DNA from: Halopolyspora algeriensis
GTDB lineage: Bacteria > Actinomycetota > Actinomycetes > Mycobacteriales > Pseudonocardiaceae
NCBI RefSeq assembly: GCF_003337235.1
Contig: NZ_QPJC01000002.1
Span: 372,001 to 436,000 of the forward strand
Direction of reading: 5' to 3'
Length of the DNA: 64,000 nt
Made by a program: the position numbers and the translations under genes. The notes beneath the pieces were generated by a model. That model saw only the letters and a list, made by a program, of their open reading frames with translations. It searched no databases and had not been told where the DNA came from. The number at the start of each line of letters is the position of its first letter. The first letter of the stretch is position 1. Below, piece by piece: positions 52,669 to 61,821 of the stretch.

Positions 52669-53793
52669 TCAGGACTTGCGCATCGACCAAAAGCCCGGGC
52701 CGACCGGTTCGACGAAGTCACCTCGGGCCACGAAGTATCCTTCCGCGTTGACCGTGATGGGCAGTTGCGGCAGGGGGCGGGTGGCCGGCCCGAAGACCGG
52801 CTTCGCCGATGCGGTGATGAGAAACTCCGACTGGTGGCACGGGCAGAGGCTGATGTGGTTCTGCGAGTCGTACTGCGAGGCGGGACAGCCCAGGTGCGTG
52901 CACACCTTGGAAAAGGCGTAGTAGTCGCCGTAGTTGAAGTCCTCCTGGCCGGGACGTTTGGTGACGTGCGTGCCGGGGCGGAGCCGGATGAGCATCACCG
53001 GCGCGTCGGAGGCGCGCTCGGCGGCCAGCAGCAGTTCCTTTTCACCGCGGTCGGATTCGCGGAACGGGAACACCGTCATCATCGAACCCGGCTGCATGTC
53101 CTCGGGCCGAACCCGTTCGATATCACCGAGAACACCGGTCTGGGCGCGCAGGTAGACGGTTTCGCCGTTGACCGGTTTCCAGCCGGTGACCCACAAGGCG
53201 GCCTGGCTGCCGCCTGCCCAGGGATTGCGGACGAAGCCGCCGATCAACAGCACACCGGTGGCGGCGCCGAACAGCCCGGCCGCGGTGAGCATCGCACGTT
53301 TGATCAGCGGACGACGAGGGATGCTGGTGTCTTCGCCGATCTCGGCGAGTTTGGCCGCTGTCGTCAGACGGGTCGTCTCCTCGGACGGGCCGTCGTGGCG
53401 CTGTTGCACCGCCAGCTCGTCGGGAAAGAACTTCTTGATGTGCAGGATCAGGCCGATACCCAGCGACAGCACGGCGAGTCCGAAGGTGCCCCCGATGACC
53501 GGGGTGTAGAGCGCGTAGTAGGTGTAGCCGTCCTCGGACGGGCGCACGTACTCGTCCGGCCAGATGCTGTAGGTGACCACGAACGCGACCGCCGACAGCG
53601 CCGACAGCACGAACCACAGTGCCACCGTCCATTCGGCCCGTTTCTCGGTTCGCCTCTCGGCGCTGGAGGCAGAGGTCGGCCACTGGGGGGTCTTGGCCAC
53701 CACTTCGACGTCTTCGAGGTGGTCGGCCAGCCGGGCCAGCTGCTGGTGGCTCATGCTCCTCGGGTCGCGTTCACCGGGGCTGTCTTCGGTCAC
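52669..53793 (-). CDS. qcrA: Cytochrome bc complex Rieske iron-sulfur subunit
   Basis: The 374-residue protein has three predicted membrane helices (about 62-82, 100-125 and 170-190), as in actinobacterial QcrA, and a C-terminal Rieske fold. 2Fe-2S ligands lie in CTHLGCPAS and CPCHQSEF, each giving one Cys and one His, plus the disulfide cysteines. It passes an electron from menaquinol at QcrB to cytochrome c heme in QcrC. The GTG start overlaps the qcrC stop (GTGA), so the two are coupled. The order qcrC-qcrA is normal, but qcrB is not next to it: it lies 5 kb away on the other strand. Confidence 0.92.
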
Positions 53794-54629
53794 GTCCTGG
53801 CTCCCAACCACAGGGCGATGGCCACCAGCGCCACCACCCCCACCAGCCAGGCGACCGCGCCTTCGGCTGCCGGGCCGATCTCGCCGAGGTTGTAACCGCC
53901 CGGGGTGTTCTTCTGATCGCGCACCGACAGGACGTAGGCGATGATGTCCTCCTTTTCTTCCGGGGTGAGCTGGCGGTCGCCGAAGGTGGGCATGGCTTGC
54001 GGACCGGTGAGCATCGCGGCGTAGAGCTGATCAGGGGTGGCCGGGTTCAGGATGGGGGCGTACTTGCCCGCGGTCAGTGCGCCGCCGCGGCCGGTGAAGT
54101 TGTGGCAGGAGGCGCAGTTGAGGCGAAACAGCAGACCACCGCGGGCGGTGTCTTCGCCGATCAGGGCGGTGCCGCTCTGCGGTGGCATTTCCGGGCCTCC
54201 TCCGTGGGCGTGGACATAGGCGCTCAGTGCCCGCAGGTTCTTCCTGCCCCGGGCGGTGTCCGGGTCGAATTCCGGCAGCGGGGGTTTGCGCAGTGCCTGT
54301 GCCTCCTGCCGGGCCAGCGGCATGCGTCCGGTGGAGACCTGGAAGTGGACGGCGGCCTCGCCCACCCCGATGAGGCTCGGCCCGCGGTTGTGCACGCCCT
54401 GCAGGTTTTCCCCGTGGCAGCTGATGCAGGTGTTGTTGTAGAGCTGCCGTCCCTGGGCGAGCAGGGTGTCCTGGGCGGTGACGACCTGTGGCTGCGGAAC
54501 GAGCATCGTGTAGAGGACCCCGGCTGACAGCAGGCCGATTCCCAGGGTGAGGCCACCGCGGAGCCTGCGACGGAGCTTGCCGCGCGGCCGCCGGCTCCGA
54601 CGAGCAGTGCGGGAATCCGGGGAGTCCAT
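53790..54629 (-). CDS. qcrC: Cytochrome bc complex diheme cytochrome c subunit
   Basis: The 279-residue protein has a membrane anchor near residues 27-45, two c-heme sites (CISCH and CASCH, each CxxCH) with distal Met in MPLARQ and MPTFGD, and a C-terminal helix ([19 protein letters not shown]). Diheme QcrC carries electrons from the Rieske protein to oxidase CuA inside an actinobacterial bcc-oxidase supercomplex, without a soluble cytochrome c. It is divergent from ctaC across 570 bp. No ctaE (subunit III) precedes it, as it would in the canonical ctaE-qcrCAB operon. Confidence 0.92.
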
Positions 54630-55199
54630 CGTCGGCGTCGTCCACCCCTCAAAGCAGTCGTGGTTTCGCAGCGTGCGACGGGAGAAGTGAAACCGTCACG
54701 GCAAACCGGTGCCGACCCGTCGTGCCCACCTTCTCGAGCGCCGGTTCCGCAGGCCGCTGCACCGATTCGGTGGTGAGCGCACGCCCGGCCTCGTCCACGG
54801 GGCCGACCGGCGCGGTCCATCATGGCCGATCGTGCCGGCGTGTGCACGGCGCCGGCGCTCTCATTGCCGCAGGGACACGAAAAGCACTCGGTCGAGTGAT
54901 GCCCGAGTGAGCCCCAAGGAACTATCCACTGTGGAAATCCGCGTGCCCGGTCCAGCAGTGACCAGGCAATCCGGCAGTTCCTCCGCAGAGGACCGAAAAA
55001 CTCCGGAAGGGAGCTGCCACCCGGCTCACCGTTTTGACAGGGGGTAGTGGGGACTCCACCCTGAGTAGGCGCTACATCATCACGCGTACTCACCGGCATG
55101 ATCGAATCGCTCCGTCGGGATGCGGGAGTGCCGGGCGGGCACGCCATTCCTACATCGCCGAGTCGCAGCAATACCCGGGACTCGCCCGGAGGAGGTCGC
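54630..55199. promoter_or_regulatory. Divergent qcrC/ctaC control region, no gene
   Basis: The 570-bp gap has no credible gene. TTGACA at 55034-55039 is a good -35 box for ctaC, but a matching -10 is not obvious. A G-rich stretch follows at 55040-55054 (GGGGGTAGTGGGG) and faces CCACCC, which recalls copper-responsive CsoR-type sites. The ctaC ribosome site GGAGGAG lies at the right end. Confidence 0.4.
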
Positions 55200-55853
55200 A
55201 TGCCGTTTTCCACCGTGTTCGACCAGCTCTTCACCGTGTGGGCAGCGATTGCCGGGGGTGTGTTCGTCCTGGTCACCGGTATCGTGCTCGTGGCGGTCCT
55301 GATCAACCGCGCCAAGCGGCGTCGGAAACTGCCCTTTCGCGCCTCGGAGAACAAACCAGTGGAACTGGGCTACGTCGTGGTGCTCGCCGGCATCGTCGCC
55401 GCCCTGTTCTACGGCAGCTACCAGGCGAACTCCGCGCTCAACCACGGCAAGGGGCTCGCCGCCGAGACGACGACCCCGGCCGCACGCATCGACGTCACCG
55501 CCTACCGCTGGTGCTGGGACTTCGCCTACCAATCGGCCCCGGTGACCGTGACCGGAACGTGCACGACCAACGACTTCCCCACCGTGGTGGTGCCTGCCGG
55601 CCAGCCGGTGGAGTTCAACCTCACCTCACGCGACGTGGTGCACGCGTTCTGGCTGCCCGACTTCGCCGCCAAACGCGACGCCTACCCCGATCACGTCAAC
55701 ACGCTGCGGATGGTCTTTCCCGAGGAGGGGCGGTGGCGGGGGCGCTGTTCGGAGTACTGCGGCACCCACCACGTCACCATGGACTTCTACGTGCGCGCGG
55801 TTTCCCCGGCCGAATACCAGCAGTATCTGGACAGCGGCGGGGCCGCGGTATGA
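55200..55853 (+). CDS. ctaC: Cytochrome c oxidase subunit II (CuA)
   Basis: The 217-residue protein has two N-terminal helices (about 10-35 and 52-72) and a periplasmic cupredoxin domain. The CuA set is complete: His in DVVHAFWLPDF, then CSEYCGTHHVTM giving Cys-x3-Cys, His and Met, with Glu carbonyl ligand. The electron-entry aromatic patch is YRWCWDF. It lacks the fused heme domain of caa3 types, so electrons probably come straight from QcrC. ATG 55200 follows GGAGGAG. It overlaps ctaD by ATGA. It is shorter than mycobacterial CtaC (~360 residues). Confidence 0.92.
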   Translation: MPFSTVFDQLFTVWAAIAGGVFVLVTGIVLVAVLINRAKRRRKLPFRASENKPVELGYVVVLAGIVAALFYGSYQANSALNHGKGLAAETTTPAARIDVTAYRWCWDFAYQSAPVTVTGTCTTNDFPTVVVPAGQPVEFNLTSRDVVHAFWLPDFAAKRDAYPDHVNTLRMVFPEEGRWRGRCSEYCGTHHVTMDFYVRAVSPAEYQQYLDSGGAAV

Positions 55854-57502
55854 CGACCACAGCAGGTCGGTCCACGCCCACCGAGCCCCGACCCGGTGTC
55901 AAGGCCGGCTCGGTCGTCGGCTGGCTGGCCAGCACCGACCACAAGCGGATCGGGCTGCTGACCGTGGGCACGTCGCTGGTGCTGCTGCTGGTGGCCGGTG
56001 GTCTCGCGATGGCCATGCGCGCCCAGTTGACCCAGCCGCAACTGGAGGTGCTGTCCAACGACCTGTACAACCAGTTCTTCACCATGCACGGCTCGATGAT
56101 GATCTACATGGTCATGACACCGTTCGCCATCGGAATCGGGCTGTATCTCGTCCCGCTGCAGATCGGTGCCCCGAACGTCGCCGCGCCCCGCACGACCATG
56201 CTCTCCTACTGGCTCTACCTCACCGGCGCGGTGGTGATGCTGTCGGGATTCTCCGCCGATTCCGGAGCGGCCGATCACGGCTGGTACGCCTACCCGCCGC
56301 TGGCCAGCAGCCGCTACACCCCCGGCCAGGGGGTGAACCTGTGGATCATCGGGGTGGCCCTGTCCAGCCTGGGCATGCTGCTGATGGCAGGCACCGTGCT
56401 GTGGACGGTGCTGCTCAAGCGCGCCCGGGGCATGGCCATGTTGCGGATGCCGGTGTTCAGCTGGTCGATCGTGGCCACGAACCTGATGGTGATCGGGGCG
56501 TTCCCGACATTGCTGGTCGCGGTGGGCATCCTCGCGGGAGGCCGCGTATATCCGGACATGTTCACCGAGAACATATGGAACATCGGCTACCAGCATCTTT
56601 TCTGGTTCTTCGGGCATCCCGTGGTGTATGTGATGTTCTTTCCGTTCGTCGGTGCGGTGGCCGAGGTGCTGGCCACCTTCGCAGGCCGCCGGTTTTTCGG
56701 CTACAAGTTCCTCGTGCTGTCGCTGTTGCTGTTCGCAGCGCTGTCGATGAGCGTGTGGGGCCATCACATGTTCACCACCGGCCAGGCGGCGAGCAACTAC
56801 TACTCGCTGACCTCGATCATGCTGGTGATCCCGGCAGGCATCGAGTACTTCGACATGCTCGCCACGGTCGTCGGTGGGCGGCTGCGATTCACCACGCCGA
56901 TGCTGTTCGCGCTGGCGTTCCTCCCGCAGTTCCTCATCGGCGGCCTGACCGGCATCATGGTCGGCACTCCGGCACTGGATTACCAGATGCAGGACAGCTA
57001 CTTCCTCGTCGCGCACTGGCACTACACACTCGCCGCGGGCAGCCTGTTCGCGCTGTTCGCCGGAGTGTATTTCTGGTTTCCCAAAGCCAGCGGCCGGATG
57101 CTGCGCGAGGGGTTGGGCAAGGCGCATTTCTGGCTGTGGGTGGCCGGTACGAACCTGACGTTTCTGCCGATGTTCTGGCTCGGGCTGAACGGCATGCCGC
57201 GGCGGATCCCCACCTATCTGCCGCGGGACGGGTTCACCACCGAAAACCTCATCGCCACCATCGGTGCCGGTCTGCTGGCGGTGGGCGGCCTGGTGTTCAT
57301 CGCCAACGTCGTGGTCGCGCTGCGGCGTCCGCACCAGGCCCCTCCGGACCCCTGGCAGGCCCACACCCTGGAGTGGGCCACCTCCTCGCCGCCGCCGACG
57401 TTCAACTTCAGCGAGCGCTACCCGATCCCGCCGATACGCAGCTACGCCCCGCTGCTCGACCTGCGTGAGCAGGAGCAGTCGAGTCGGGCGGAGGCGGGAT
57501 GA
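55850..57502 (+). CDS. ctaD: Cytochrome c oxidase subunit I with altered proton channels
   Basis: The 550-residue heme-copper oxidase core has all metal ligands: low-spin heme His 80 (FTMHGSMM) and His 391, heme a3 His 389 (VAHWHYT), CuB His 256, 305 and 306 (GHPVVY, WGHHMF), and Tyr 260 of the His-Tyr crosslink. Channel residues differ from A-type enzymes. HPEVY reads HPVVY (Glu to Val 258), APDxAFPRxN reads APNVAAPRTT (Asp to Asn 109, Asn to Thr 116), and the K-channel TGIK reads AGIE (Lys to Glu 332). The A2-type Tyr-Ser substitute is also absent (FFGHP). It likely reduces O2, but how protons arrive is unclear. It is coupled to both neighbours by ATGA overlaps. Confidence 0.92.
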   Translation: MTTTAGRSTPTEPRPGVKAGSVVGWLASTDHKRIGLLTVGTSLVLLLVAGGLAMAMRAQLTQPQLEVLSNDLYNQFFTMHGSMMIYMVMTPFAIGIGLYLVPLQIGAPNVAAPRTTMLSYWLYLTGAVVMLSGFSADSGAADHGWYAYPPLASSRYTPGQGVNLWIIGVALSSLGMLLMAGTVLWTVLLKRARGMAMLRMPVFSWSIVATNLMVIGAFPTLLVAVGILAGGRVYPDMFTENIWNIGYQHLFWFFGHPVVYVMFFPFVGAVAEVLATFAGRRFFGYKFLVLSLLLFAALSMSVWGHHMFTTGQAASNYYSLTSIMLVIPAGIEYFDMLATVVGGRLRFTTPMLFALAFLPQFLIGGLTGIMVGTPALDYQMQDSYFLVAHWHYTLAAGSLFALFAGVYFWFPKASGRMLREGLGKAHFWLWVAGTNLTFLPMFWLGLNGMPRRIPTYLPRDGFTTENLIATIGAGLLAVGGLVFIANVVVALRRPHQAPPDPWQAHTLEWATSSPPPTFNFSERYPIPPIRSYAPLLDLREQEQSSRAEAG

Positions 57503-58074
57503 AATCCGCGCACGCCGTGGTCGGGGCCTGGGCGACGGGCAACCTCGTGCTCGCCCTGATCCTGCTGTTCGCGTTCCGGCCCGCCGGGTTCATCGAGCAG
57601 CTGCTCTACATCTGGTCGACCGCCCTCGTCGCGGGATTCGGGGTGGCCGTCCTGCTGGCGACCCGGGCGGGCCGGGTCGGCACGCAACGGCGCCAGCCCA
57701 GGCGCGCCGCCGCCGGGATATTCGCCGCGCTCGGGCTGGCGGTGGGGCTGACCGGTTTCGCCTACGGCTGGTGGCTGTCGGTGATCGCGTTCTACCCGCT
57801 GGTGCTGGCGGCGTGGCTGGCCCGCGGCGAGCGGCTGCGTCGCGGAACGCGCCCGTGGCCGGCCGCGCTCGGCGACACCGAGCCCGCGGGCCCGCCGCGT
57901 TTTGTCCACTACGGTTCCTCCCTCGGCACCGCCACGGCGGTTCCCGCCGAGCACGCCGCTCACGGGCCCCCCGCACCGCCGCCTCCGCGCCCGCCGCACC
58001 GGCTGCGCAAGGCGGCTTTGCTGGCTGCCGGGGCGCGCGCCGTCGTGGAGATGCTGAGGAGGCGCCGGCGATGA
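57499..58074 (+). CDS. Four-helix membrane protein of the oxidase operon
   Basis: The 191-residue protein has four predicted helices (about 5-28, 32-54, 71-92 and 96-111) and a basic, Pro/Ala/Arg-rich C-terminal tail of ~75 residues. It overlaps ctaD at its start and the CtaG-like gene at its end by ATGA, so it is made in step with the oxidase. It does not match subunit III, which has seven helices, nor clearly the actinobacterial subunit IV (CtaF). It could be a small accessory subunit or assembly protein. No family is recognised. Confidence 0.7.
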   Translation: MKSAHAVVGAWATGNLVLALILLFAFRPAGFIEQLLYIWSTALVAGFGVAVLLATRAGRVGTQRRQPRRAAAGIFAALGLAVGLTGFAYGWWLSVIAFYPLVLAAWLARGERLRRGTRPWPAALGDTEPAGPPRFVHYGSSLGTATAVPAEHAAHGPPAPPPPRPPHRLRKAALLAAGARAVVEMLRRRRR

Positions 58075-58568
58075 CCGCGCACATGGCCCACATGGCGATG
58101 ATGGGATTGCTCGTCTCGGTGGCCGCGCCGGTGCTGCTGCTCGTGCTCACCCGCCTCGCCCCGCGCTCGGACCGGTGGACCGTGCCCGCTGCGGTGGCTC
58201 TGCCCGGGTTCGTCGTGCTGCACGCTGCCGTCACCGTGGCAGGTCATCTCGGGGTGCCGCCGCCGTGGGATTCGGCGGCGCGGATCACGATGCTGGTCGG
58301 GGCGATGCTGTTCTGGGCGCCGGTGCTGGGAGTGCGCCACCGGCTGCCGGACACGGGTCGCACGCTGTACCTGTACACCGCCATGCCGCTGCTGGACCTG
58401 GCCGGGGTCTGGCTCGTGATCGTCGGCGACAGCACCGGCGGCCTGTCCATGATCGTCGGGATGCTTCCGCTGGGCATGAGCGCGGTGGTCGTCACCTGGA
58501 ACTGGATCCACCGCGAGGAGCGGCGCGTCGCCGCCGACGAGCCGGTCGAGCAAGGAGTGGGGAGGTGA
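58071..58568 (+). CDS. Caa3_CtaG-like copper/oxidase assembly membrane protein (short form)
   Basis: The 165-residue protein has four to five helices. MTAHMAHMAMMGLLVSVAAP is a His/Met-rich first helix, and AMLFWAPVLGVRHRLPDTGRTLYLYTAMPLLDLAG matches the FWxPVLG block and following helix of Caa3_CtaG proteins (split: AMLFWAPVLGVRHRLP and LYLYTAMPLLD). Family members help build the CuB/CuA oxidase. This one is shorter than the usual ~250-300 residues. It ends just before qcrB. Confidence 0.65.
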   Translation: MTAHMAHMAMMGLLVSVAAPVLLLVLTRLAPRSDRWTVPAAVALPGFVVLHAAVTVAGHLGVPPPWDSAARITMLVGAMLFWAPVLGVRHRLPDTGRTLYLYTAMPLLDLAGVWLVIVGDSTGGLSMIVGMLPLGMSAVVVTWNWIHREERRVAADEPVEQGVGR

Positions 58569-58572
58569 ACGC

Positions 58573-60081
58573 GTGAGCCGCCGCGGAGGCCCCAAGCAGT
58601 CCATCGCCCAGCGCGTTGCCGACGGGGCCGACCAGCGCTACCTGCTTTCCGGTTCCCTGCGCAAGGAACTGTCGCACGTCTTCCCCAAGCACCACTCGTT
58701 CCTGTGGGGCGAGTTCGCGCTGTACTCGTTCATCGTGCTGGTGCTCTCCGGTACCTTCCTGTCGCTGTATTTCGTCCCGGACACCACCGAGGTCGTCTAC
58801 ACCGGCTCCTACGATCCCCTGCGGGGTCTGCACGCCTCCCGCGCCTACCAGTCGGCGTTGGACCTCTCCTTCGAAGTGCGTGGCGGCCTGTTCATCCGCC
58901 AGATGCACCACTGGGCCGCGCTGGTGTTCGTCGCCACGATCGTGCTGCACATGATCCGCAATTTCTTCACCGGCGCCTTCCGCAAGCCGCGTGAGCTCAC
59001 CTGGGTCAGTGGCGTGGCGCTGCTGCTGCTCTCCCTCGTGGAGGGCTACACCGGCTATTCCATGATCGACGACCTGCTGTCGGGCTTCGGGGTGCGCATT
59101 TTCTCCGGAATCTTTCTGTCCATACCGGTCATCGGCCCGTGGGTGCACTGGCTCGTCTTCGGTGGCGAGTTCGAGGGGGATCTGTGGATCTCGCGCTTCT
59201 TCGTCGGCCACGTGTTCCTGATTCCCGGCCTGTTGATCGCGCTGATCACGGTGCACCTGGTGCTGGTGTGGTACCAGAAACACACCCAGTTTCCCGGGCG
59301 GGGTGCGCACGAGTCCAATGTCGTGGGCGATCGCACCATGCCCGGCTTCGGCAGCAGGACCCTGGCCAACGGGCTCTGCGTCTTCGGTGTGCTCGCGCTG
59401 CTGGGCGCGTTCTTCCAGATCAACCCGATCTTTTTGTGGGGTCCCTACACCCCGGCCGACATCTCCACCGGGGCGCAGCCGGACTGGTACATCGGGTTCA
59501 TCATCGGTGCCCTGCGGCTGTTCCCGCCCTGGGACATCCATCTGGGCCCCTACACCGTGGTGGCGCCGTTCTGGCCGGGCGCCGCGATTCCCCTGCTGAT
59601 GTTCCTGTTGCTGTTCGCCTATCCGTTTCTCGAGAGACTGGCCAGCAAGGACAGGCACCTGCACAACCTGCTGCAGCGGCCACGGGACGCCCCGGTCCGC
59701 AGCGGCCTGGGTGCGATGGCGCTGACCTTCTACCTGGTGCTGTTCATCGCCGGAGCCGACGATGTGCACGCGATCGCGTTCAACATCCCCTTCGAGTGGT
59801 TCGTGTGGGGAGGGCGGGCCATGGTGCTCGTGTTGCCGCCACTGGCCTACATCGTCACCCACCGGATCTGCCGCGGGCTGCAGCGCGCCGACCGGGACGT
59901 CCTCGAACACGGTGTTCGGACCGGCCTGCTGCAGGAACGCCGGCAGGGAGTGTTCGTCGAGGTGCGCCAGCCACCGGGCGGGGTCGATCACGAGGGCCGG
60001 CCCGTGCCGATGGCCTACGGCGGGATCCGGATCGACCGCAGCGTGTCCGGGGACGAGGACGGCGATGAGCGTTCCGACTGA
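58573..60081 (+). CDS. qcrB: Cytochrome bc complex cytochrome b subunit
   Basis: The 502-residue QcrB has eight helices. b-heme His ligands are in RQMHHWAALVF, LHMIRNFFTGAFR, GHVFLIPGLL and VHLVLVWYQKHTQFPG. The Qo motif reads QPDWYIG in place of the mycobacterial PDFY and mitochondrial PEWY. The C-terminal extension (DRDVLEHGVRTGLLQERRQG) is the actinobacterial form. It oxidises menaquinol and sends electrons to QcrA and, through the b hemes, to Qi. GTG 58573 follows GGAGG. Here it sits in the oxidase operon, separated from qcrCA. Confidence 0.93.
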   Translation: MSRRGGPKQSIAQRVADGADQRYLLSGSLRKELSHVFPKHHSFLWGEFALYSFIVLVLSGTFLSLYFVPDTTEVVYTGSYDPLRGLHASRAYQSALDLSFEVRGGLFIRQMHHWAALVFVATIVLHMIRNFFTGAFRKPRELTWVSGVALLLLSLVEGYTGYSMIDDLLSGFGVRIFSGIFLSIPVIGPWVHWLVFGGEFEGDLWISRFFVGHVFLIPGLLIALITVHLVLVWYQKHTQFPGRGAHESNVVGDRTMPGFGSRTLANGLCVFGVLALLGAFFQINPIFLWGPYTPADISTGAQPDWYIGFIIGALRLFPPWDIHLGPYTVVAPFWPGAAIPLLMFLLLFAYPFLERLASKDRHLHNLLQRPRDAPVRSGLGAMALTFYLVLFIAGADDVHAIAFNIPFEWFVWGGRAMVLVLPPLAYIVTHRICRGLQRADRDVLEHGVRTGLLQERRQGVFVEVRQPPGGVDHEGRPVPMAYGGIRIDRSVSGDEDGDERSD

Positions 60082-60180
60082 GCCGCTCGCCGCCGGCGCC
60101 GGCACGCCGGCGAACCGGTCCGGAGGGGCCGTCCCCGGATCGGGGTGTGCCGAGGACGGGGCAGCATAGTGCGAGCGGTG

Positions 60181-61821
60181 ATGGGTACACAGCCGGGTAT
60201 GCCGAGACACCGGACAGGTGCGGCCGATGCGTGCCGAGCAGCCCGGCTACGCACCACGGTGCTGATCGCCACGGTGATGGGCCTGGTGGCGCTGATCGCC
60301 GGATGCGGTACCGGACAACTCGGCCCCCGGCATCTGCAGCGAGTCGGAGCCGGTTCCGAGGGCCAGGTGGGCAGCATCGCGGTCCGCGACGCCATGTTCG
60401 CCCACACCTCCTCGATCGAGGGCGACACCGTCTACCGGCCGGGTGAGACCGTTGCGGTGCAGGCGACCATCGTCAATGAGGGCACGCGCCCGGACCGATT
60501 GGTGTCGGTGAGCAGCCCGATCGCAGGTGAAGGCCTCGTCCTCGGGGAGAGCACCCTGCCCGGCCATCACACGCTCACCGCCGGCTATGTCGAGCCCGTC
60601 GCCTCGATCGAGCTGCCCGAGACGACCTCGATCGAGCTGCGGCTGACCGGGCTGACCACCACGATCCGGGCCGGCCGCACCTACCCCGTCGTGTTCACCT
60701 TCGCCCACGCCGGACAGGTCCGGCTCCCACTGCGGGTGGCCAACCCGGACGTACCTCGCGAGTACTGCCCGCTGCCGCCGAACGGCAAGGCCCCGAAAGT
60801 GCTCACCGCGCCTCTCGGCCGTGCCCCGGCACCACCCCGCAATCCCCTGCCGGACTGTTCCAGCCTGCCCACGAGCATCCCCGAGGTGCAGGTACTCGAC
60901 GTCGCACACCCCCTGAGCCATCCCACCTGGGCCACCGAGCGCAACGTGCTGCTCGGTTTCGTCGAGCAGGACGGCCGCCGGCGGCTGGTCCGGGTGGATT
61001 CGGAGACCGGCGAGGCCCTCGGCTCGCGCACGGTCGAGGGTGCCGGCGAGAAATTCGCCCTGATCACCCGGCCCGACGAGAGGGTGGCTGTTCCGCTGAC
61101 CGAGGCCGGCCGGATCGCCCTGCTCGACACCGAGACCCTGACCGAGGTCGGCAGTCTCGGCGACATCCCGACACCGTCTTGGGTGGTGGTGGAGAAAGCG
61201 GCGAAGTCGCTGTTCGCTCTGTCCGAGGACGACTCGACGGTCACCGGCGTGGATTACGAGCGCAGCGAAGTGCTGTTCCGGCACGAGGTGCAGGCGGGCC
61301 CGGAGGCCGTGGTGGAGCCGGGCAACCACGTCGACCCCTCGTTCTGGCTGGTCACCCGGGAGGGATTCACCTACTTCCACGAGACGCCGCAGGGGCCGCA
61401 GCCTGCGGGCACGCGCCGGGTCGCGTTGAGCCACACGACCTTCAGTTCGGACGACAGCGTGTCGAAGAGCGCCTACTTCGCCGAGGAGGGTTCCCGCCGC
61501 GTGCAACTGGTGGAGGGAAACGCCCACGGCGGGCTGGAGGTCGTGGCCGTCAACGAGCTCAGCGAGACGGTCGAGCACGTCGTGGCCGAGCCTCAACAGG
61601 AGCACCGCGTGTATGCGGTGACCGCCGACAAGCTGATCAGCATGCGGCCCGAGACCCTCGAGGTCATCACCATGATCGATTTCCGCACCACCCTCGAGCA
61701 GTCCGGCCTCGGCCACGCCCGGATCTCGGGCGTGGCCGTCGGCGACGACTACGTGTACCTGGCGGTGGAGGGCGAACCGTATGTGGTCAAGGCCAGGAAG
61801 GAAGAGGCACTGACCGAGTAA
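60181..61821 (+). CDS. Lipoprotein: PCu(A)C-like domain fused to a beta-propeller
   Basis: From ATG 60181 the protein has 546 residues. A signal peptide ends in a lipobox (VALIAGCG), giving a lipid-anchored extracellular protein. Residues ~60-190 (GSIAVRDAMFAH, VAVQATIVNEGTRPDRLVSV, TYPVVFTFAHAGQVRLPL) have the beta-sandwich pattern of actinobacterial PCu(A)C-like copper chaperones, though the usual Met/His copper ligands are not clear. Residues ~230-545 form repeated four-strand units (RRRLVRVDSETGEALG, GRIALLDTETLTEVG, DKLISMRPETLEVI), as in YncE-like propellers. It follows qcrB by ~100 bp and may serve oxidase metallation. GTG 60169 and ATG 60199 are other starts. Confidence 0.72.
   Translation: MGTQPGMPRHRTGAADACRAARLRTTVLIATVMGLVALIAGCGTGQLGPRHLQRVGAGSEGQVGSIAVRDAMFAHTSSIEGDTVYRPGETVAVQATIVNEGTRPDRLVSVSSPIAGEGLVLGESTLPGHHTLTAGYVEPVASIELPETTSIELRLTGLTTTIRAGRTYPVVFTFAHAGQVRLPLRVANPDVPREYCPLPPNGKAPKVLTAPLGRAPAPPRNPLPDCSSLPTSIPEVQVLDVAHPLSHPTWATERNVLLGFVEQDGRRRLVRVDSETGEALGSRTVEGAGEKFALITRPDERVAVPLTEAGRIALLDTETLTEVGSLGDIPTPSWVVVEKAAKSLFALSEDDSTVTGVDYERSEVLFRHEVQAGPEAVVEPGNHVDPSFWLVTREGFTYFHETPQGPQPAGTRRVALSHTTFSSDDSVSKSAYFAEEGSRRVQLVEGNAHGGLEVVAVNELSETVEHVVAEPQQEHRVYAVTADKLISMRPETLEVITMIDFRTTLEQSGLGHARISGVAVGDDYVYLAVEGEPYVVKARKEEALTE

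Follow-up and report, generated by a model that had tools for sequence, protein, structure and literature searches.

Introduction

Can a heme-copper oxidase pump protons, or work at all, when the residues that are thought to carry protons to its active site have been replaced? This question is raised by a ctaD gene in a 64-kb stretch of the Halopolyspora algeriensis genome (contig NZ_QPJC01000002.1, positions 372,001 to 436,000; hereafter the window), which encodes subunit I (CtaD) of an A-family heme-copper oxidase. The fold and the redox centres of the protein are kept, while the D-channel and the Lys, Thr and Ser of the K-channel are lost. In A1 enzymes, the D pathway takes up the protons to be pumped and half of those used in the chemistry, and the remaining chemical protons arrive through the K pathway, which leads from a Glu of subunit II via the Lys to the cross-linked Tyr (PMC8361435); the residues of the mycobacterial pathways have been described in PMC11189923.

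The channel residues needed for pumping have so far been inferred mostly from mutants. The clade to which the window gene belongs can be regarded as an evolutionary experiment, in which the branching Glu and the Lys were given up along with the D-channel, the rest was kept, and the product has been retained in several classes of Actinomycetota. The proton-to-electron ratio of the variant bears on whether an oxidase that has none of these residues can pump. If the enzyme does not pump, it would show when bacteria choose an uncoupled heme-copper oxidase, and the link to formate dehydrogenase (FDH) described below offers a candidate physiological substrate in culturable Streptomyces and Pseudonocardia.

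Diagnostic residues of the CtaD variant

The channel residues were taken from Table 2 of PMC3084760 and mapped by alignment onto Paracoccus denitrificans CtaD (L092), whose numbering is used where indicated. The D-channel residues Y35, N113, D124, N131, S193, N199 and E278 of Paracoccus correspond to T38, L98, N109, T116, M176, T182 and V258 of the window CtaD, and S134 (S119 in the window) is the only member of the set that is kept. The K-channel residues S291, T351 and K354 are replaced with A271, A329 and E332. All six ligand histidines (H80, H256, H305, H306, H389 and H391) are present, as is the cross-link Tyr of helix VI, Y260. The first-pass annotation of this DNA, which was made from the letters alone, had reported the heme, CuB and His-Tyr residues as complete and had placed Asn109, Thr116, Val258 and Glu332 at the sites of the D-channel Asp and Asn, the HPEVY Glu and the K-channel Lys. 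Our alignment reproduces these residues and their numbers exactly.

The key segments align with mycobacterial CtaD without gaps, and helix VIII is gap-free in independent HMMER and MAFFT alignments, by which a misalignment at this helix is ruled out. A sequencing or assembly error, which the annotation had named as a possible cause of the differences, is likewise excluded by the agreement of 61 genomes. An AlphaFold2 model of the window CtaD has a mean predicted local distance difference test score (pLDDT) of 82.7 and a predicted template-modelling score (pTM) of 0.86; since the loops 241-255, 304-314 and 373-379 are of low confidence, no structural detail was drawn from it. The protein scores below the curated NCBIfam cut-offs of both NF050116 (561.6 against 880 bits) and TIGR02891 (551.3 against 670.75 bits). 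Two other CtaD genes of the same genome are canonical, and their products share 47% and 44% identity with the window CtaD.

Conservation within the variant clade

A scan with one genome per species yielded 59 loci, from which a Heimdallarchaeota A2 enzyme and a Streptomyces copy that had been frameshifted in extraction (L074) were removed. Adding the window, the basal sequence L105 and two more genome hits to the remaining loci gives a set of 61 HPVVY sequences from Pseudonocardiaceae, Streptomyces, Actinomadura, one acidimicrobial and Solirubrobacterales/Conexibacter. The annotation had suggested a search for genomes with the same motif set; it was fruitful in this sense, but the D-channel positions of the set turned out not to be conserved.

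Val, Ala and Glu are invariant at Paracoccus positions 278, 351 and 354 in all 61 variant sequences, as is a Tyr at position 355. In 61 canonical comparison sequences, E278, T351, K354, D124, N131, N113 and N199 are each invariant. Among the variants, positions 124, 131, 113, 199 and 35 vary: the D124 position is filled by Gly, Asn, Ala, Arg, Glu, Thr, Ser, Val or Gln, and the N131 position by Thr, Ala, Cys or Asn. The fixation of Val, Ala and Glu, while the old D-channel positions vary, implies a fixed re-design combined with a decayed D-channel. Loss of D-channel function in an ancestor, followed by drift, would produce such a pattern, provided that helix VI and the Lys site were reshaped and placed under selection. 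The annotation had counted four independent changes, which is not quite right, because V258 and E332 are fixed throughout the clade and N109 and T116 lie at positions that drift after the loss of the D-channel.

The six His ligands, the cross-link Tyr and the CuB site are kept in 61/61 variant sequences, and the clade has conserved polar residues of its own (Y86, S82, S301, Y333, Y378 and Q360). The three replacements of Glu by Val, Thr by Ala and Lys by Glu are shared by a genome of the same genus (G001), whose protein is 90% identical to that of the window. The ratio of nonsynonymous to synonymous substitution rates (dN/dS) of the window ctaD against three relatives is 0.19-0.28, indicating purifying selection. 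Two basal Solirubrobacterales sequences, L082 and L086, have Glu at the D124 position, and the first of them still has Asn at 131. No intermediate form was found among 29 further CtaD sequences from 79 genomes of the class of the most basal member, all of which are canonical A1 or A2. When 396 genomes from across the phylum were searched for a DNA pattern, only the genome of the window and one other were hit (1 of the 395 other Actinomycetota). The variant is rare, yet widely spread in Actinomycetota.

Phylogenetic position and comparison with known oxidases

In a maximum-likelihood tree of 86 rows (a quick tree was also made), the variants form a single clade with 100/100 support, which is sister to canonical actinomycete CtaD (100/99) and apart from both the A2 sequences and the Lys-less proteobacterial sequences. 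This position implies descent from a two-channel A1 enzyme, with a single origin among the sampled sequences. The annotation would have been contradicted by a nesting within pumping oxidases that have a documented alternative channel; none was found, since the clade stands beside the pumping A1 enzymes and no documented channel fits it. A plasmid origin was rejected, as the matches in 928 plasmid records all stay below 60% identity.

The closest known system is the actinobacterial A1 aa3 oxidase of the bcc-aa3 supercomplex (Mycobacterium smegmatis, 6adq/8ovc; Corynebacterium glutamicum, 7q21). Its CtaD forms the sister clade at 44-47% identity, and the mycobacterial and corynebacterial proteins are the best fold matches of our model (template-modelling score of about 0.9). 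The CuA, heme and CuB ligands are common to both, and the variant has paralogous QcrC, QcrA and QcrB partners. Unlike this enzyme, the variant has no D-channel, branching Glu or K-channel Lys/Thr (Val, Ala and Glu being fixed), and its loci are devoid of subunit III. The A1 hallmarks that it lacks are the Glu of HPEVY, Asp124/Asn113/Asn131/Asn199 and Lys354/Thr351/Ser291; its descent is A1-adjacent within family A. Subunit II has the CuA site of cytochrome c oxidases, and a diheme QcrC, a Rieske protein QcrA and a cytochrome b QcrB are partners as in the bcc-aa3 supercomplex.

A2-type enzymes (Thermus caa3, YSHPxVY) also have no Glu in helix VI, and 40/61 variants have the Tyr of their Tyr-Ser pair (FYGHP). 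The window has FFGHP, a minority form, and the A2 Ser is seen in 0/61 variant sequences, with Gly or Ala instead, so that the absence of the pair claimed in the annotation is borne out. The sampled A2 members (L091, L110 and L145) keep the D, N and K residues and group elsewhere in the tree. Among the plasmid-borne family-A CtaD of proteobacteria, a group with Gln for the Lys (Bradyrhizobium, Sinorhizobium, Azospirillum and Sphingobium) resembles the variant in its altered D-channel Asn and the missing Lys; however, it keeps the HPEVY Glu and S291, has longer proteins and an adjoining subunit III where checked, and forms a separate clade. Sequences of this group are L093, L097, L098, L099, L106, L108 and L109, from rhizobial, sphingomonad, Rhodobacter and Azospirillum plasmids. 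Another plasmid group, with HPWVY and Ala for the Lys (Paraburkholderia, Caballeronia and Mesorhizobium INR15), shares the lack of the helix VI Glu and the Lys, whereas its D-channel Asp and Asn are intact and subunit III adjoins. Its sequences with Trp for the Glu are L107, L111 and L115, and the INR15 copy directly follows a pyrroloquinoline quinone-dependent alcohol dehydrogenase and a c-type cytochrome. Membership of the variant in the A2, Gln or HPWVY groups is ruled out by the motifs and the tree.

With B-type (ba3) oxidases the variant would share a single K-like channel and the lack of a D-channel, but it is only remotely similar to them (24% identity to a plasmid ba3 enzyme) and has none of the B-type Tyr/Ser/Thr channel residues. 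Nitric oxide (NO) reductases (cNOR and qNOR) have no cross-link Tyr and carry an H-X-Arom-X-E motif, whereas the variant has the Tyr and HPVVY. Family-A oxidases without a K-channel are known, and repeated losses have been discussed under one scenario (PMC8239418). Among the family-A oxidases examined, no other lacks both channels together with the helix VI Glu or the Tyr-Ser pair. Searches of the open-access literature on channels in these organisms, on SCO7234/SCO7236 of Streptomyces coelicolor and on FDH with terminal oxidases in actinobacteria revealed no description of the variant.

Association with formate dehydrogenase

An FDH gene is found within 8 kb of the variant ctaD in 29 of the 43 loci with full flanks, and 27 of these 29 have an in-frame TGA at the selenocysteine (Sec) site. 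Cys replaces Sec in three FDH-bearing loci overall (L061, L084 and L088), two of which have full flanks. In the flanks of several relatives, a split frame joins across the TGA exactly at the Sec site, ENQAR[VI]*HS[SA]TV, and the larger frame scores 1596.9 bits with the NCBIfam model of actinobacterial formate dehydrogenase, above its cut-off of 1400 bits. FDH is accompanied by an NrfD-type membrane protein and an FdhB-like iron-sulfur protein; SelB, SelD and a hemerythrin-like protein are often encoded there as well. In a control, about one of about 110 canonical CtaD genes from 60 relatives, counted by eye from coordinates, was near an FDH.

The arrangement differs between genera. The Streptomyces ctaCD genes lie inside the formate cluster; FDH is downstream in Pseudonocardia, upstream on the same strand in Prauserella/Qaidamihabitans, and upstream on the opposite strand in Amycolatopsis, Actinomycetospora and Solirubrobacterales. 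These differences imply that the association of FDH with the oxidase survived rearrangement. The genome of the window has two Sec FDHs on the contig of the variant ctaD, at distances of 177 and 215 kb, and the subclade of the window has lost the adjacency. Of the FDHs in the 60 relatives, the closest belong to the three genomes with the variant oxidase.

Several details of these loci may be recorded here. The Sec FDHs of the window genome are G000:C2:606965-609538 (L154) and G000:C2:644674-647289 (L155), the latter of which contains a run of unknown bases. At L049:2648-5908, L072:2722-5982, L035:11154-14492 and 25 further loci, open reading frame callers render the Sec FDH as frames of 188 and 861-887 amino acids. 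SelB and SelD adjoin the Sec FDH in Streptomyces. A hemerythrin-domain protein is encoded between FDH and ctaC at L072:6038-7117 and L049:6036-7376, and a short protein of Pseudonocardia (L035:10833-11150) resembles its N-terminal part. The exception in the control is G042, in which a Cys-type FDH closely precedes a fully canonical ctaD (L156; G042:C1:2566000-2585000), showing that the pairing of formate and oxidase occurs with a pumping-type enzyme, too.

Operon and partner proteins

The tight operon comprises ctaC, ctaD, the genes of the 191- and 165-aa proteins and the qcrB paralogue; its first four genes are joined by four-base overlaps, and the qcrC and qcrA paralogues are divergently transcribed (Table 1). 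Across the relatives, the CuA ligands of CtaC, the ligands of heme b in QcrB, the Rieske ligands of QcrA and the two CxxCH sites of QcrC are all kept. At least 95% of the relatives retain the subunit II Glu that lies at the K-channel mouth, and the QcrB paralogue is inside the locus in 42 of the 43 variant loci with full flanks. The 191- and 165-aa proteins have no Pfam or NCBIfam match; they are conserved beside the variant oxidase, with homologues in most variant loci, and are candidate new subunits.

A COX3 (subunit III) match was found in none of the variant loci. The own genome has a single ctaE, which lies on another contig in a canonical ctaE-qcrC-qcrA set, and one further ctaC. In A1 enzymes, subunit III supports uptake through the D pathway and protects against suicide inactivation (PMC8361435), and its absence from the variant loci therefore fits the lost D-channel.

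Table 1. Features of the oxidase locus (window coordinates)
Feature	Position	Strand	Remarks
CtaD variant, subunit I of A-family heme-copper oxidase	55850..57502	+	Intact open reading frame, 550 aa; COX1 E=1.4e-127
Asn109 codon	56174..56176	+	At D-channel entry Asp (D124); varies among relatives
Thr116 codon	56195..56197	+	At D-channel Asn (N131); mainly T or A among relatives
Val258 codon	56621..56623	+	Replaces D-channel Glu (E278, P. denitrificans); V in 61/61 variant sequences
Glu332 codon	56843..56845	+	Replaces K-channel Lys (K354); E in 61/61, then invariant Tyr333
CtaC, subunit II	55098..55853	+	CuA ligands intact; 4-base overlap with ctaD
191-aa predicted membrane protein, no known family	57499..58074	+	4-base overlap with ctaD; present in some relatives
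165-aa predicted membrane protein, no known family	58071..58568	+	Conserved near ctaD in nearly all long Actinomycetes relatives
QcrB paralogue (cytochrome b)	58573..60081	+	Heme ligands and PDWY motif kept
QcrC paralogue	53790..54629	-	Two CxxCH heme c sites
QcrA paralogue	52669..53811	-	Rieske cluster ligands kept
Lipoprotein-like, PCu(A)C copper-chaperone domain and beta-propeller repeats	60145..61821	+	Also beside the operon in L033 and L070

The PCu(A)C/beta-propeller protein downstream of the QcrB paralogue is possibly a metallation factor.

Proposed mechanism and alternative explanations

We propose, with confidence and doubt about equally balanced, that the QcrCAB paralogues and CtaCD form a second, dedicated O2-reducing branch, which was derived once from a pumping A1 oxidase, pumps weakly or not at all, takes up protons by a Glu-based K-like path and is often fed by formate. 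From menaquinol, electrons would reach CuA by way of the paralogous bcc complex and move on to heme a and to the site of heme a3, CuB and Tyr260, where water would be formed from O2. As the D-channel is gone, the protons for this chemistry would all enter through one K-like route, which may lead from the Glu of subunit II to Glu332, assisted by Tyr333, Ser322 and water in the space left by T351A, and from there to Tyr260. Pumping, for which A1 enzymes use D-channel protons, would be weak or absent. Given that there is no D pathway, that a Glu is fixed at the site of the Lys and that subunit II has retained its own Glu, one K-like uptake path with little or no pumping is the simplest reading, and weak or absent pumping seems plausible.

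The gene neighbourhood in many relatives suggests that the branch would drain formate-derived electrons to O2, tied to a membrane FDH that usually has Sec. Less energy would be conserved, but such a branch would work against a high proton-motive force or keep O2 low near an O2-sensitive enzyme. That the variant is a natural family-A subtype ('VVY/GxE type') that arose a single time out of a two-channel pump, with a single re-built Glu channel and no or a wholly new pump, serving as the O2-reducing end of a Sec-FDH formate chain, we regard as tentative, its chance falling slightly short of even.

Several observations weigh against the proposed branch. The K-channel has also been deprived of S291 and T351, and a subunit III might be borrowed from the CtaE of the main enzyme. 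No FDH is encoded within the 64 kb of the window, and the Streptomyces loci are not independent of one another. FDH is also common, being present in 37 of the 60 relatives; co-occurrence alone therefore says little, and the adjacency carries the argument.

Among the other explanations, normal or near-normal pumping through a new path, provided by subunit I itself or by QcrB, the 191-aa or the 165-aa protein, is unlikely, though less so than the others. The conserved polar residues peculiar to the clade and the small conserved membrane proteins could serve such a path, and in mycobacterial supercomplexes a QcrB loop gives an alternative entry to the D pathway (PMC8361435). However, V258 removes the branching Glu that A1 enzymes require, the A2 Tyr-Ser pair is not there to replace it, and the N113 and N199 positions are filled by hydrophobic and small residues, respectively. 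Both inner channels being without their known residues, one may also think of chemical protons taken from the outer side, as in the cytochrome c-dependent NO reductase, a member of the same superfamily without a channel from the cytoplasm (PMC3084760); the oxidase would then be non-electrogenic and a pure electron sink. We consider this improbable, because the retained Glu of subunit II and an invariant protonatable residue exactly at the Lys site would be hard to explain if they were unused.

The unusual proton paths could alternatively reflect a main substrate other than O2, such as NO or another small molecule, and QcrB3 of S. coelicolor, a possible relative of the QcrB in the window, associates with nitrate reductase in spores (PMC7931247). 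The CuB ligands, the His-Tyr pair and CuA are nevertheless all kept and the Glu motifs of NO reductases are absent, which makes this explanation very improbable, and the NO role considered in the annotation unlikely. Finally, the loss of many residues that are invariant in the 61 canonical sequences might suggest a decaying or non-catalytic paralogue. This is scarcely credible in view of a dN/dS of about 0.2, the overlapping operon genes and cofactor ligands that are conserved in the partners and, over 61 genomes, in CtaD; the annotation had set a conserved, coupled operon against random decay, and with a clade of 61 sequences and a coherent operon this argument holds and decay is excluded.

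Possible counterparts in Streptomyces coelicolor

Two genes of S. coelicolor may be related to the O2-reducing branch proposed here. QcrB3 (SCO7236), a cytochrome b, is reported to be specific to spores (PMC7931247). SCO7234 encodes an oxidase subunit, and its transcript level is lowered in a mutant of a copper transporter (PMC6414726). The alternative cytochrome b lies two locus numbers from the oxidase subunit, as in the Streptomyces variant loci, and this gene order suggests that SCO7236 and SCO7234 may belong to the variant family.
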